Below, piece by piece: positions 4,526 through 30,730 of a stretch of 64,000 nt of DNA; the first letter of the stretch is position 1; the number at the start of each line of letters is the position of its first letter. Below the pieces are notes generated by a model. The model was not told where the DNA came from. It did not search any database and saw nothing but the letters and a program-made list of their open reading frames with translations. Origin of the DNA: Bacilli bacterium. GTDB lineage: Bacteria; Bacillota_I; Bacilli_A; RF39; UBA660. Both the position numbers and the translations under genes were made by a program. Where the stretch lies: the NCBI GenBank assembly GCA_017511375.1, contig JAFWKJ010000012.1:1-64000 (forward strand), read 5' to 3'.

Positions 4526-6168
4526 TTTTCTTTATAAAATTCAATTCTATCAAGGATTCTATCTTTTCCTAGTATTTTCATAATACTAAACAAATCTGGA
4601 GATTTTAATCTTCCTGTAATCATAACACGAATGGCTTCACAAATGTCCCCCACATGTCCCTTATAAGAATCTGGATTGTTTTTATAATCTTTTGGACTTG
4701 CCGCATAACCATGATTACTTGCAAAATCCTTGATTCCATTAAACCAAGTTTCATTATCAACTTCTAAGTCTAAATGATTGTTTATATAGTCAAGAATTAA
4801 ATCCACATCATAGGTTTTATCTCCATCATATTTTGCATAACCTTCTTCTTTAAATTGAGAATCAATAGCATAACTAAACTCTTCTTTTACTTCACTATAT
4901 TTAGAAATATCTTTTCTAGGTCTAGGGCCATCTTTTTCAATACTAAAGAAGGAAATCATATCTTCTTTATTTTCTTCTAATAATTTTGCATATTCTGGAT
5001 CATGCTTATGAGCCCAAACAAGCGTTTCTTCATAAACATCTTTCCCACTTTTATGAGCAAAATATGTTTTAGAAATATTATTCAATTTATCTAAATCAAA
5101 TAAGGTACCTCCAATAGCCATCTTATCAAACGTAAAAGTAAAGTCCTCTAATGTTTTATCACCATTATTTAAATACCACTCTTCAAAATTAGAATTTAAA
5201 ATTGTTGCAAGATAAAGTTTCACAGCTTCAATAGGAATTCCTACTTCATCATAATAAGATACTTTTGCCTCTGGATCCTTTCTTTTAGAAAGCTTACGAA
5301 TAATGTCTCCTTCTTTTTTTGTAACAGCTGCATGATGAACGTATTCTGGTCTTTGGAACCCTAAAACCTCAAACAACTGTACATGAAGAGGAATAGAAGA
5401 AACCCATTCATCTCCCCTAATAACATGCGTCGTATGCATCAAATGATCATCAATTGCGTGAGCAAAATGATATGTTGGTGTTCCATCTTTCTTAAGTAAA
5501 ACAATATCCATATCATTTTCAGGAAACTTAATTTTTCCTTTAACACAATCTACAAACTCTATTTCTTTCTTAGAATCTCCAGGAGATTTTAAACGAATAA
5601 CATACTCATCCCCTTTTTCAATTCTAGCCTTTATTTCTTCTAAAGATAAATCTCTATCAACAGCATACATTCCATAAATACCTATTTTCGTTTTATTTAT
5701 TTCTTGTTCTTCACGAATAGAAGCAATTTCTTCTTCCGTCATAAAACACGGATAGGCATAACCTTTCCCAATTAAATCCTTTACGTAAGTTTGATAAATC
5801 TCTGTTCTAGCGCTCTGAATATAAGGTCCATATTTTCCACCAACTCTTTCAGACTCATCTGGAATAATGTCGAAAGCATCTAAATCATGGTAAATACCTT
5901 CTACTCCATTTTCCACACTACGCTTTTGATCTGTGTCCTCAATTCTTAAAAAGAAAACACCTTTACTTTGTCTTGCGAAAACACTATCACAAAAAGATCC
6001 AAACAAACTTCCCATATGAACAAATCCCGTAGGAGAAGGTCCAAATCTTGTTACCATAGCTCCTTCTGGTAAATCTCTCGCAGGATATTTTTCTTCATAA
6101 TAAGAAACAGTATGTTCTAAATTAGGAAACAATAAATCCGCAAGTTCTTTCTTTTCTGTATCTGTCAT
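4516..6168 (-). CDS. gltX: Glutamyl-tRNA synthetase
   Basis: Class I aminoacyl-tRNA synthetase of 550 aa that charges tRNA-Glu. In Firmicutes this enzyme usually also misacylates tRNA-Gln, which GatCAB then amidates. The Rossmann core shows FGPSPTGFVHMGSLF (the HIGH-like motif reads HMGS) and IRKLSKR (the KMSKS-like motif). The ATG at 6168 is chosen because GAGGTG lies 6 nt upstream; a GTG at 6177 would place the start inside that site. The protein is longer than typical bacterial GltX (about 480 aa). It lies just downstream of tRNA-Gln(CUG). Confidence 0.93.
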   Translation of the reverse strand: MTDTEKKELADLLFPNLEHTVSYYEEKYPARDLPEGAMVTRFGPSPTGFVHMGSLFGSFCDSVFARQSKGVFFLRIEDTDQKRSVENGVEGIYHDLDAFDIIPDESERVGGKYGPYIQSARTEIYQTYVKDLIGKGYAYPCFMTEEEIASIREEQEINKTKIGIYGMYAVDRDLSLEEIKARIEKGDEYVIRLKSPGDSKKEIEFVDCVKGKIKFPENDMDIVLLKKDGTPTYHFAHAIDDHLMHTTHVIRGDEWVSSIPLHVQLFEVLGFQRPEYVHHAAVTKKEGDIIRKLSKRKDPEAKVSYYDEVGIPIEAVKLYLATILNSNFEEWYLNNGDKTLEDFTFTFDKMAIGGTLFDLDKLNNISKTYFAHKSGKDVYEETLVWAHKHDPEYAKLLEENKEDMISFFSIEKDGPRPRKDISKYSEVKEEFSYAIDSQFKEEGYAKYDGDKTYDVDLILDYINNHLDLEVDNETWFNGIKDFASNHGYAASPKDYKNNPDSYKGHVGDICEAIRVMITGRLKSPDLFSIMKILGKDRILDRIEFYKEKKR

Positions 6169-25272: not shown

Positions 25273-26262
25273 TTATAACATAGGTCCATTTTTTTTCGTA
25301 TATATTTTACTGTAGTTTACATCAGGCTTGGCATAAATATAATTATCCATAAAATAATCTCTCTTTTGATCTTCTAACCCAAGTCTTAAAACAGTATCCC
25401 CTACGATTAAGTATCGGTACTCCTCAAAGCAAAGATGAACGTCTCCTTGGACAAATCGATCTAAAAAATCAGAATTTAATTCATCAATAAAAGCCATAAA
25501 AGGAACTTTTCCAATTTTATTATACTGAATATCATATACATCTACATCATTAATAAAATCTAATAAAGCATGTCTCTTTTTTTTCGTTTTTTGTTCTCGA
25601 AAAGTAATTAAATTATAGGCATGAGGAACAGATTCTTTTCCTTCTAAAAGAAGATTCCCTATCATAAGAAATGTTTCAAAATCAAATAGTTTTAAGATAT
25701 TATGAGCCATAATAGCATACTCACTACACATAGCATTTCCTTTTCCTTTAAAATCTTTAATACTATGTTTACGAACAGGATCTAAAAACAACCCATTATT
25801 TTTGATAAACAGATGATGCATCTTATCACGATCACATTTCTTAAAGTGACCAAAATAATCACTTAAAAAGTCCCTGACATATTCAAAGAACTCATATTCA
25901 TCCCCAATCTCTTTATCCTTCACATATTTACAAAAATCATATAAGTAATCTTGTTCATCCATGTAATAATAATATCCATTATTAAAACCGATTTCATTTT
26001 CAGTATTCCAGGCCAAACCATAAATCATTTTCGTATCTTTTCTAGCAAATTGACCAAAAACGCAATTAATGGTAAAGGAATCATCCTCATCTATTTCCTC
26101 TAAATCAAAAGAAAGAGGTTGATGTCCCACTTCATAACCAAGTTCCACATCGTAAGGACAATTTTTTTTGCTTTTTCGTTCCAAAACATCAATTTTATGA
26201 CGAACTACTTTTTGTAATTGAGAATCATTTAAATTTTCAATCGTATGTAAAAATCGTAACAT
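25273..26262 (-). CDS. Transglutaminase-like protein (329 aa)
   Basis: Soluble protein with the order Cys-His-Asp expected of the transglutaminase fold: GNAMCSEYAIMAHNIL, PHAYNLITF, and LLDFIND, all in residues 180-260. The first 150 residues are acidic and unrecognised. The start at 26262 (MLRFLH) is favoured because GGGGAG is 7 nt upstream; the ATG at 26268 is too close to it. It lies just upstream of the SDR gene (29 nt), so the two may be cotranscribed. The substrate is unknown. Confidence 0.65.
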   Translation of the reverse strand: MLRFLHTIENLNDSQLQKVVRHKIDVLERKSKKNCPYDVELGYEVGHQPLSFDLEEIDEDDSFTINCVFGQFARKDTKMIYGLAWNTENEIGFNNGYYYYMDEQDYLYDFCKYVKDKEIGDEYEFFEYVRDFLSDYFGHFKKCDRDKMHHLFIKNNGLFLDPVRKHSIKDFKGKGNAMCSEYAIMAHNILKLFDFETFLMIGNLLLEGKESVPHAYNLITFREQKTKKKRHALLDFINDVDVYDIQYNKIGKVPFMAFIDELNSDFLDRFVQGDVHLCFEEYRYLIVGDTVLRLGLEDQKRDYFMDNYIYAKPDVNYSKIYTKKNGPML

Positions 26263-26326
26263 GGGCATTCTCCCCTCTACTTAATTTCTTATTATATGAT
26301 ATTTTCATAGGGATTGCCAGTCTTAA

Positions 26327-26361: not shown

Positions 26362-26886
26362 TTATATTACCTGCTGAATAGCTAGTTGAACAGCTTCTTG
26401 AGGGGTTTTCGCAACAATACACTTTTCTCTACATCTCTCATCTAAATATAAATTAGATAATTTTTTACTCCAACCATCAAATTGATCAATCGTAATAATA
26501 GGAATCCCCGCTTGATAAGCAATCGCAATTTCCGTAAGTGTTCCGGAGCCTCCTCCTAAAGCAATGATAACGTCACAAGAAGTCACTAAAACAAATTCTC
26601 TGCCTCCCCCAATCTCTTGCCCAGAAGAGATGATAACAGTAGGCCTATATTTCCCAAATACCTTTTTGTTTTTACCTCCCGCAACACCCACAGTCATTCC
26701 TTTCATTTTAGAAGCCATTTTGGCTGCTTCTGTAGATAAAGAAGTATAATCTTTTTCAGCTCCATAAACTAATATATTTTCGGATAAAGCAATCTCTTTT
26801 CCTACCTCTTTCGCAAATTCCAAAGCCTCATTACTATATTTTAAATCAGCAGCCGACCCCATAACACCTATTTGGATTTTTTTCAT
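26362..26886 (-). CDS. SLOG-domain (LOG/DprA-like, TIGR00725-type) protein
   Basis: A 174-aa Rossmann-like protein. It starts KKIQIGVMGSA, has the nucleotide loop LGGGSGTLTEIAIAYQAGIPII (about residues 108-130) and GGGREFVLVTSCD. This is the SLOG superfamily, which includes cytokinin-activating LOG and nucleotide-sensing proteins; this subgroup has no assigned reaction. The start overlaps the PRTase stop by 4 bp (ATGA). It is the last gene of an operon preceded by a histidine-rich leader peptide. Confidence 0.85.
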   Translation of the reverse strand: MKKIQIGVMGSAADLKYSNEALEFAKEVGKEIALSENILVYGAEKDYTSLSTEAAKMASKMKGMTVGVAGGKNKKVFGKYRPTVIISSGQEIGGGREFVLVTSCDVIIALGGGSGTLTEIAIAYQAGIPIITIDQFDGWSKKLSNLYLDERCREKCIVAKTPQEAVQLAIQQVI

Positions 26887-27554
26887 AAACTTCTTCCTTT
26901 CTTTTTTAGCACTTTGACAACTTCTTCGTCTTCATTTGTACCAATTATTTTTTCTGGTAAATCTCCTATACATGTTTTTTTCCCTTGTAACCTATCTATC
27001 TCATTCCATAAAGCAATACTTCTCTCTATACAACCTTTAGAAAAAGATTTAACATCTGGAAGAGGAATGGAAGCCCTAACATTAGGATTTCCAAAAGGTT
27101 CAAAATAAGGTGCTTTTACAAGACCACTATCTGTCTTGACCAAAATACCACTACCAGCAATCCCAAAATAGAAATCTCTTTCACAAATTTGATCAAGAAC
27201 ATCTTCTCCTAAAAGAATATTTGTTTTAAGTCCCTTTTCAAGATTTTGATTAAAATAATCATAACCATCCTTAGTTGAAATAGAAGCAAGAATTCCAACC
27301 ACTTCAATTCCCTCCTTCATAAAATAATCTATTATTTTTCGAAGAACAGAACCAGAGAAAACAACATCATCAGCCAAAATAATTTTATTTCCTTCTACAC
27401 TTTTAGAAATTCTTTGTACTTGCTCTTGAATAGATTCTTGTTTTCTAGAAGTAATACGATCTTCTCCTTCAATTCTCGTACAATCAAAATAGAAGATATT
27501 TTCCTCATCCGGTTTTATATAGATTTTATCCAAAGATACAATGGGGATAATCAC
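26883..27554 (-). CDS. Phosphoribosyltransferase-domain protein (possibly frameshifted from the 80-aa gene)
   Basis: A 223-aa product with a type I PRTase PRPP-binding loop, KIILADDVVFSGSVL (about residues 56-70). A second half contains FYFGIAGSGILV and FGNPNVRASIPLPDVKSF. As annotated it would start at a GTG with no ribosome binding site, inside the end of the upstream 80-aa gene. Losing one base from the GGGG at 27543-27546 would join the two frames into a single protein of about 298 aa (QGDYP then IVSLDKIYI). It may therefore be the C-terminal part of one gene. Translation is coupled to the SLOG gene. Confidence 0.7.
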   Translation of the reverse strand: MIIPIVSLDKIYIKPDEENIFYFDCTRIEGEDRITSRKQESIQEQVQRISKSVEGNKIILADDVVFSGSVLRKIIDYFMKEGIEVVGILASISTKDGYDYFNQNLEKGLKTNILLGEDVLDQICERDFYFGIAGSGILVKTDSGLVKAPYFEPFGNPNVRASIPLPDVKSFSKGCIERSIALWNEIDRLQGKKTCIGDLPEKIIGTNEDEEVVKVLKKKGRSL

Positions 27555-27768
27555 CTTGAATCAAATCATTTACTTGCATCATTTCTTCTTCTAAAACAAT
27601 CGTAACAGCATCAAAAATACCATTTACCTGTCTTGCAAAATCCTCTCTCACTTCTTGTATCATTTTCCCACTAGGAACTTTATCATATTGATAATCCAAT
27701 GCATTCACTCCCTTTAATATTCTTTCAATATCGTTACTAAAAACGATCCCTTTTTTTATTTTTTTCAT
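27526..27768 (-). CDS. 80-aa protein, likely N-terminal part of the PRTase gene
   Basis: It starts after GAAGGA and reads through KKIKKGIVFSNDIERILKGVN to an acidic helical region (DAVTIVLEEEMMQVNDLIQGDYP), then stops after HCIFG. The 3' end overlaps the PRTase frame by 29 bp. No family is recognised. Taken with the lack of a start signal for the PRTase, a single-base frameshift (natural or from assembly) at 27543-27546 is the simplest reading; a genuine overlapping gene pair or programmed frameshift is the alternative. Confidence 0.6.
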   Translation of the reverse strand: MKKIKKGIVFSNDIERILKGVNALDYQYDKVPSGKMIQEVREDFARQVNGIFDAVTIVLEEEMMQVNDLIQGDYPHCIFG

Positions 27769-27810
27769 ATTTTTTCCTTCTTTCTCATCATTTTTTTCAT
27801 TTTTTTTATA

Positions 27811-27906
27811 AAAAAATGCTATACAAGTAGTCCTTGTATAGCATATAGTCTCCTTTATTTATAAGCTAGATACAAGCACTACAAATAGCACTTGTACCTA
27901 CGAGTT
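27811..27906 (-). promoter_or_regulatory. Transcription attenuator with alternative hairpins
   Basis: Read on the minus strand after the leader peptide. A perfect 12-bp terminator hairpin ATGCTATACAAG/CTTGTATAGCAT (27816-27844) is followed by a T-run. Upstream, TACAAGTGCT/AGTGCTTGTA (27871-27896) forms a second hairpin. Its 3' arm with the adjacent TAGC (27865-27876) can instead pair with the 5' arm of the terminator as an antiterminator. The 5' arm ACAAGTGC can pair with GCACTTGT (27921-27928) inside the leader peptide. This is the arrangement of a ribosome-mediated amino-acid attenuator. Confidence 0.75.
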
Positions 27907-27969
27907 TTAATGTCGTATTAACAAGTGCAGACTATTATGATGATGAAGTTGATTATAAATTGAATTCAT
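27907..27969 (-). CDS. Histidine-rich leader peptide (20 aa)
   Basis: A short frame with three consecutive His codons at positions 9-11 and further His at 15 and 20, five of 20 residues in all. AAGGAAGGA lies 6 nt before the ATG. A strong promoter is at 28001-28029. The frame ends before an alternative-hairpin region and terminator. By analogy with classical his, trp and leu leaders, ribosome stalling at the His run when charged tRNA-His is scarce would control read-through into the PRTase-SLOG operon. Confidence 0.75.
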   Translation of the reverse strand: MNSIYNQLHHHNSLHLLIRH

Positions 27970-28000
27970 AATAATCCTTCCTTTCTCATTGATTGACTTC

Positions 28001-28029
28001 ATTCTAACACATTCTATAATATTTGTCAA
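28001..28029 (-). promoter_or_regulatory. Promoter of the leader peptide/PRTase/SLOG operon
   Basis: Minus strand TTGACA and TAGAAT are 17 bp apart, with TGT immediately before the -10 box. Confidence 0.88.
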
Positions 28030-30130: not shown

Positions 30131-30670
30131 CTATTCTTCGTTGACATCCATAAGAGAAAATAAGTCTTCCTTTTGATTTAACTCAACAATGTTGATAATA
30201 ACCCCTTCTCCTACAACTGTCCCACCTAATTGTTCAATACAACTTCGAATGGCATTCATAGTACTTCCTGTCGCGTAAATATCATCCATAATATAAAAAT
30301 TTTTATTCGAATAATCCTCTCCTGCCAATTTAGGTAATTCTAAAACATCTTCTCCATACTCTTTTGTATAGTTCGCAGTAGAAACAACTGTACTAGGAGG
30401 AAGTTTTCCCCTCTTTCGTACTGGAATAAAACCAACATGAAGAGAGGACGCCAACATAGAACCCATTAAAAATCCCCTCGCTTCAGGCCCTACAATATAA
30501 TCGATTTTTTTGTCTTTCATCTCCTCTACAAAGAGATTTACCATTTCATTTAATGTTTCTTTTTGTAAAAATAAAGGATTTATATCAATAAACTCAATTC
30601 CCTTTTTAGGAAAATCTTTTTCCGTTCTAATGTTTGTTTCATTTTGAAATAAACTTTTTAATATTTTCAT
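30131..30670 (-). CDS. apt: Adenine phosphoribosyltransferase
   Basis: A 179-aa purine-salvage enzyme converting adenine and PRPP to AMP. Motifs include the acidic start KDFPKKGIEFIDINPL, DYIVGPEARGFLMGSMLA, IPVRKRGKLP, YGEDVLELPK and the PRPP loop FYIMDDIYATGSTM (about residues 118-131). The ATG at 30670 follows AGGAGTGG; an upstream ATG at 30703 would precede a -10 box (TGA-TATAAT). It is a single-gene unit. Confidence 0.92.
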   Translation of the reverse strand: MKILKSLFQNETNIRTEKDFPKKGIEFIDINPLFLQKETLNEMVNLFVEEMKDKKIDYIVGPEARGFLMGSMLASSLHVGFIPVRKRGKLPPSTVVSTANYTKEYGEDVLELPKLAGEDYSNKNFYIMDDIYATGSTMNAIRSCIEQLGGTVVGEGVIINIVELNQKEDLFSLMDVNEE

Positions 30671-30700
30671 AAATACCACTCCTAAATTCATTATATCATT

Positions 30701-30730
30701 CAAAAAGAAAACGTTCTATATAAGAACGTT
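30701..30730 (-). terminator. Terminator of the VWA/XpaC/SBP/SPFH operon
   Basis: Minus-strand stem AACGTTCT/AGAACGTT with 5-nt loop and T-rich tail. Confidence 0.85.

Follow-up and report, generated by a model that had tools for sequence, protein, structure and literature searches.

Attenuators of his operons in the Firmicutes, including the Erysipelotrichales, comprise a leader with three to five His codons, an attenuator, an antiterminator and a terminator (Ashniev 2022, PMC9413887), and a leader with a run of His codons has also been predicted upstream of a second hisS gene (hisS*) and of hisZ in Bacillus, among the Firmicutes (Naville and Gautheret 2010, PMC2965389). At the level of translation, a CUU UGA cassette stimulated by a Shine-Dalgarno (SD) sequence has been described in a 2016 review of recoding, where it was also pointed out that frameshifting at hungry codons could yield starvation-specific proteins, no examples being known (PMC5009743). 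A search of the later literature found no starvation-specific product of hungry-codon frameshifting.

The locus considered here lies in a window of 64,000 nucleotides from a Bacilli bacterium (contig JAFWKJ010000012.1), and the leader and operon coordinates given below are on its minus strand. Judged from its sequence, an operon encoding a phosphoribosyltransferase (PRTase) and a SLOG protein is, with good confidence, controlled by a his/trp-type transcription attenuator that would respond to His-tRNA, the PRTase being completed by a +1 slip, in bacteria that appear to be histidine auxotrophs.

The Histidine Leader

A sigma-70-type promoter can be read at 28001..28029, where TTGACA (28029-28024) and TAGAAT (28006-28001) are separated by a 17 nt spacer; similar sequences (TTGACA...TATAAT) occur upstream of the leaders of many relatives. 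It is followed by a ribosome binding site, also read in the sequence (AAAGGAAGG, 27976..27984), with GAAAGG-type counterparts upstream of most relatives' leaders, and by a leader peptide ORF of 20 codons (MNSIYNQLHHHNSLHLLIRH, 27907..27969) in which codons 9, 10, 11, 15 and 20 specify His, the control codons His 9-11 occupying 27945-27937. As expected of a his/trp-type attenuator, the leader hence has a short ORF that can be translated and that contains a run of the regulating codon, and a first-pass annotation of the window had placed promoter, ribosome binding site and the 20-codon leader with its five His codons correctly.

There are five pairing segments, the first of them inside the leader ORF, with the alternative helices that had been claimed for them: segment 1 (GCACUUGU, 27921..27928), segment 2 (ACAAGUGC, 27888..27895; helix 2:3 uses 27898-27886), segment 3 (UAGUGCUUGUAUC, 27869..27881), segment 4, which is the 5' arm of the terminator (27833..27844), and segment 5, which is its 3' arm (27827-27816) and together with the U tract spans 27809..27827, seven U residues coming directly after the arm. 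Helix 1:2 also contains an inner UACGA/UCGUA stem, and the antiterminator helix 3:4 runs on into the terminator loop, where UAGUGCUUGUA is paired with UACAAGGACUA. The RNA of 27811-27993 folds at -56.5 kcal/mol, compared with -30.35 ± 3.75 kcal/mol for dinucleotide shuffles (z -6.97), and none of 200 such shuffles folded as well as the leader.

Pair counts taken over 20 leaders show the outer pairs of 1:2 to be kept in 160/160 cells (100%), 2:3 in 90%, 3:4 in 91% and 4:5 in 97.6%. Compensatory changes were found mainly in the terminator, where six pairs of 4:5 carry double changes, compared with one pair each in 1:2, 2:3 and 3:4; covariation in segments 1-3 is thin because these arms are too strongly conserved.

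Predicted folding of the window leader indicates pause, antiterminator and terminator helices that exclude one another and are set by ribosome position. For a ribosome whose A site is at His 9 or 10, and before segment 5 is complete, the predicted probability is 1 for 1:2 and 0.9 for 3:4, as had been supposed for a stall at the first His codon; when the A site has reached codon 15 or 20, it is 1 for 2:3 and 0 for 3:4. Most of the sensing therefore falls to two codons: His 9 and 10, and in part 11, act as control codons, but 15 and 20, which had been counted with them, do not. A ribosome at the stop codon, expected to leave 2:3, gives a mixed prediction (2:3 0.52, 3:4 0.30). In the complete window RNA the terminator always wins (0.85-0.98), the antiterminator being preferred only before segment 5 exists. 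Since the terminator is favored in the finished RNA even with a stalled ribosome, in the window and in more than half of the relatives, readthrough there rests on kinetics, and the window leader is predicted to act as for a kinetic attenuator. In eight relatives, the minimum of the stalled full-length RNA already has 1:2 together with a long 3:4 extending into the terminator loop.

When His-tRNA is ample, the ribosome would thus be expected to clear the His run, 2:3 to form and the terminator to end transcription; when it is short, the ribosome would wait at His 9-10 and 1:2 would form, leaving segment 3 free for segment 4, and RNA polymerase would continue. The attenuator is taken to be real and to lie on the minus strand, in support of the original interpretation, with the response to starvation read from its architecture.

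Conservation Among Relatives

Genome contigs were scanned with the C-terminal part of the PRTase, and 25 relatives were found, in metagenome-assembled genomes of Bacilli, Tenericutes and Clostridia, mostly from rumen and gut. With the window counted, a leader with a His run (CAT codons, some CAC) is present upstream in 25/26 PRTase-SLOG loci; examples are MKYSYNQIHHHNSLHLLIRH, MFKKIIKFNHHHNSLHLLIRH and MKNIQTLIHHHNNLHLLIRH, and, upstream of hisS-PRTase-SLOG at L036, MNIYIINIELHHHCRSTCIA. The RNA motif is near-invariant in 20 loci and rebuilt with a different sequence in others, including a second leader type at L025, L028, L029 and L030, which by reading appears to keep the arm order of the main type. 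Loss of the His run and of the paired arms in close relatives, which would have counted against the attenuator, is clearly not what is seen, the leader also being found before hisS2 and a histidine-racemase-like gene (see below).

The most distant locus, L037, has no His-run leader; a YerC/TrpR-like gene (named by eye), whose protein ends in HHHA, lies upstream of the PRTase gene. A CACGC/GCGTG hairpin upstream of position 5001 at this locus spans the stop codon of the YerC/TrpR-like gene, where an attenuator has possibly been built from a regulator's own C terminus.

The operon is patchily spread, in 2/395 genomes of the class and 1/392 of the phylum, and was not found in IMG/VR by the search run; a viral origin was rejected on that ground.

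Links to Histidine and an Arginine Sister Leader

A hisS gene adjoins the PRTase-SLOG pair in eight loci (one a fragment), and five genomes with an operon hisS contain a second, housekeeping hisS elsewhere. The products of the second histidyl-tRNA synthetase gene (hisS2), which occurs either within the operon or alone, form a group apart from housekeeping HisRS (support 98/98) and have the motif RYDLT, compared with LRPEGT in the housekeeping HisRS of Bacilli. At L017, the hisS2 downstream of the SLOG gene appears to be a fragment of 117 aa, and another RYDLT-type hisS is located elsewhere in the genome.

A covariance model of the leader, searched against the relatives' genomes and across the class, matched in 20/22 of the relatives' genomes. 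Extra leader copies were detected directly before separate hisS2 genes in G567, G574, G582 and, in the class scan, G289. In G581, which also carries L031, another copy precedes a histidine-racemase-like gene that is partial (L138:3-428, minus strand; G581:C17), which suggests that D-histidine is used there when histidine is short. This gene matches NCBIfam racemase models at 2.5e-16, although below cut-off, and a histidine racemase in the PDB at 2.7e-9. The downstream genes had been described as unrelated to his biosynthesis, and this holds in so far as no hisD was found in 23 genomes (the control search also missed that of B. subtilis, hence single absences are weak); they are not remote from histidine, however, as the operon often includes hisS2 and both hisS2 and the racemase-like gene tie downstream genes to it in relatives. 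The host bacteria are apparently histidine auxotrophs.

Three weak matches of the covariance model, L146 (G573:C2), L147 (G572:C20) and L151 (G574:C2), are leaders with arginine runs, such as MKLFLQNNRRRYR and MSYLILNIRRRGMITLVMR, that precede M20 ArgE/DapE-like deacylase genes and a following gene. They probably represent a sister attenuator responsive to Arg with the same RNA architecture. The leader would then be modular, a change of codons switching the amino acid, with His before hisS2, the racemase-like gene and PRTase-SLOG and Arg before ArgE/DapE-like genes.

It is highly improbable that what the leader senses is slowed translation, a drug or, at NAU codons, a lack of tRNA modified with queuosine, and not the charging of histidine tRNA. 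The leader is indeed rich in CAT, AAT and TAT codons, but among relatives the His run is retained where codons for Asn and Tyr change (HHHRRSL, HHHMH), and the His-related neighbors and the Arg leaders before ArgE/DapE-like genes also speak against it.

The Split PRTase Gene and its Putative Frameshift Site

The first gene downstream of the leader is split, a feature missed in the first-pass annotation. Its zero-frame N part of 80 codons (27526..27768) ends in ...GDYPHCIFG*, and the C part is read on in the +1 frame, as PIVSLDK, to 26883; joined by a +1 frameshift, they would form a PRTase of 294 aa (P0001; 26883..27768) that scores above the PF00156 cut-off. The putative frameshift site is CCC CAT (27541..27546), a slippery Pro codon followed by a His codon that would occupy the A site. 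The gene is split in 21/26 loci, with the junction CCC CAT YGT, and CCC CAT is invariant in all 21. A P-site codon able to re-pair in the +1 frame (CCC-C) is accordingly fixed in 21/21 split genes, and CCC makes up only 6.5% of the Pro codons in the C parts. In the five unsplit genes, this position reads CCT ATT, CCA AT(T/A) or CCC GTC.

Three nucleotides before the slippery codon is an SD-like stretch (AAGGTGAT, 27550..27557; anti-SD duplex -10.4 kcal/mol). The anti-SD duplex of the 14 nt before the junction averages -9.1 kcal/mol in split and -2.8 kcal/mol in unsplit genes (Mann-Whitney p 0.003, uncorrected for kinship; the relatives are phylogenetically related, and counts and p-value overstate independence). 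A stretch of -6.8 kcal/mol or better is present in 17/21 split genes, the exceptions being L014, L025, L029 and L030. At L023 and L031 the junction reads AGGAGG TAT CCC CAT; the order in prfB of Escherichia coli is AGGGGG TAT CTT TGA.

Both halves are under selection, dN/dS being 0.1 to 0.45 in every pair computed (the window N part and six others). A sequencing error or pseudogene was rejected as the cause of the split, the same junction being found in 21 assemblies and dN/dS being below 0.45. The one-frame homologue L033, modeled with the other members' halves as alignment, gave a pLDDT of 94.1, and 94 across the junction. In G014 (98% complete), ARAGORN, applied to tRNA loci but not to every one, identified a single tRNA-Pro, with anticodon UGG; a tRNA search pattern (CTNNTTNGGGANNAG) was dropped as its matches were mostly non-tRNA.

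That the PRTase functions as two chains, the C part being started at GTG, TTG, ATG or AUU by means of the SD-like stretch, is very unlikely. The distance from the stretch to the ATT codon is indeed about 7 nt; a GTG occurs at 27554 in the window, and in several relatives GTG or ATG can be found a short way upstream. L025, L027, L029, L030, L032 and L034, however, have no upstream ATG, GTG or TTG, nor any for 19-249 residues, and three of these six also have no good SD-like stretch; a separate start was rejected for these six and is excluded less surely elsewhere. Two chains would, moreover, make the invariant CCC needless; homologues with an unsplit gene consist of a single chain, and the model shows a single fold. 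A +1 frameshift is thus very likely, given the invariant junction, the SD-like stretch, six relatives with no start for the C part, dN/dS in both halves, the single-fold model and the one UGG tRNA-Pro.

Control of the frameshift by His-tRNA is plausible. The PRTase would be completed only when the ribosome slips from CCC to CCC while the His codon CAU stands empty in the A site, usually aided by the SD-like stretch; failing a slip, translation would end within about five codons. CCC CAU would then be a hungry-codon programmed frameshift site, and a shortage of His-tRNA would both open transcription and complete the PRTase, a double lock on one signal to which we give even chances. If so, the trans-frame PRTase would be a starvation-specific protein.

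The competing account, somewhat short of even, accepts the attenuator as described but has the +1 shift occur at a roughly constant rate, ungoverned by His-tRNA, CAU being simply what results when CCC-C precedes an Ile codon. The A-site CAT is indeed forced by the slip base C and the Ile codon ATY of the conserved Pro-Ile, so that the identity of the His codon is only modest evidence, weaker than its invariance suggests; the chance of the A-site codon being His is by estimate one in four or five. CCC-C is slippery by itself with a UGG tRNA (PMC4519876), which is in keeping with the single tRNA-Pro of G014. On the other hand, slow A-site codons generally matter in +1 shifts (PMC5009743), the mRNA would arise mainly when His-tRNA is short, and the gene can do without a shift, as the one-frame homologues show.

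The PRTase and SLOG Proteins

The window protein is a type I PRTase (PF00156, 29.8 bits against a cut-off of 26.3) with the PRPP loop IILADDVVFSG. Its best fold comparison is a middling one, to HGXPRT (Z 8.5), and the Foldseek match to HGPRT (E 7e-4) has a low TM-score, so that the fold gives no indication of the substrate; a sequence search of the PDB gave low-complexity PPR matches and one HPRT. The SLOG protein (LDcluster4/TIGR00725-like; 26362..26886), whose start overlaps the PRTase stop (ATGA), matches SLOG cluster 4 (PF18306) at 96.3 bits (cut-off 26.3), and adjoins the PRTase in 26/26 loci. The SLOG gene is followed at 25273-26268 by a gene for a protein of 331 aa with no Pfam match, a relative of which also follows hisS2 at L027; it may be part of the operon. 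A second, apt-like PRTase gene (30131-30703), apparently unrelated, is located some 2 kb upstream of the leader.

Most likely, the PRTase-SLOG pair serves to recover histidine or His-tRNA in auxotrophs, the operon probably restoring the supply of one or the other. A PRPP-using enzyme together with a LOG-type protein could make or break an N-ribosyl link, perhaps on a source of histidine, although this is a guess. An unassigned enzyme pair would thereby be placed in histidine supply, in little-studied gut and rumen Bacilli.

A resistance or defense module, in which HisS2 would be an inhibitor-insensitive HisRS and the PRTase-SLOG pair would inactivate or answer an agent attacking the charging of His-tRNA, is considered unlikely. 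The very patchy spread described above and the RYDLT motif would suit it, as would a weak similarity to PRTase-CE (PF24390), which 19/25 members match (E up to 0.01, best 9e-9), the window protein scoring 16.9 bits against a cut-off of 27. The racemase-like gene, however, points to nutrition, IMG/VR gave no match, and no defense genes were recognized next to the operon. A literature search for natural HisRS inhibitors or frameshifted PRTases found none.

Comparison with Known Systems

Rfam RF00514, the enterobacterial his leader, had no match in the window leader at the gathering score, and no T-box model matched near the operon, tRNAs alone being found in the window by Rfam; both identities were rejected. 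The working principle is nonetheless common to the enterobacterial his leader and the one described here. Firmicutes his-operon attenuators precede biosynthesis operons, but the targets here differ and, as noted, hisD was not found. The leader of Bacillus hisS*/hisZ is alike in its His run before a second hisS, but belongs to another lineage and has another RNA sequence, and no PRTase-SLOG, racemase or frameshift has been described there. A His-responsive PRTase-SLOG operon had been put forward as new. The principle of the leader layer is known, both from his operons and from the His leaders that had been reported upstream of a hisS paralogue in Bacillus (PMC2965389); its RNA sequence and targets are new.

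The Listeria phage +1 shifts likewise have CCC as the slippery Pro codon, in a host of low GC content, but concern structural phage genes, occur at CCC_UGA or CCC_UCC, and have no link to an amino acid (PMC5009743). The prfB frameshift has the same order of SD-like stretch, UAU, slippery codon and slow A-site codon, with both frames conserved, but there the A site holds UGA, the slippery codon is CUU and the product is release factor 2, whereas here a sense His codon CAU follows CCC and no release factor is involved. If confirmed, control by starvation would make the present site a frameshift of a type for which the 2016 review had no example. The candidate is conserved in about twenty genomes and combines a slippery site, a stimulator that is usually present and, at the level of transcription, a putative sensor of the same amino acid.
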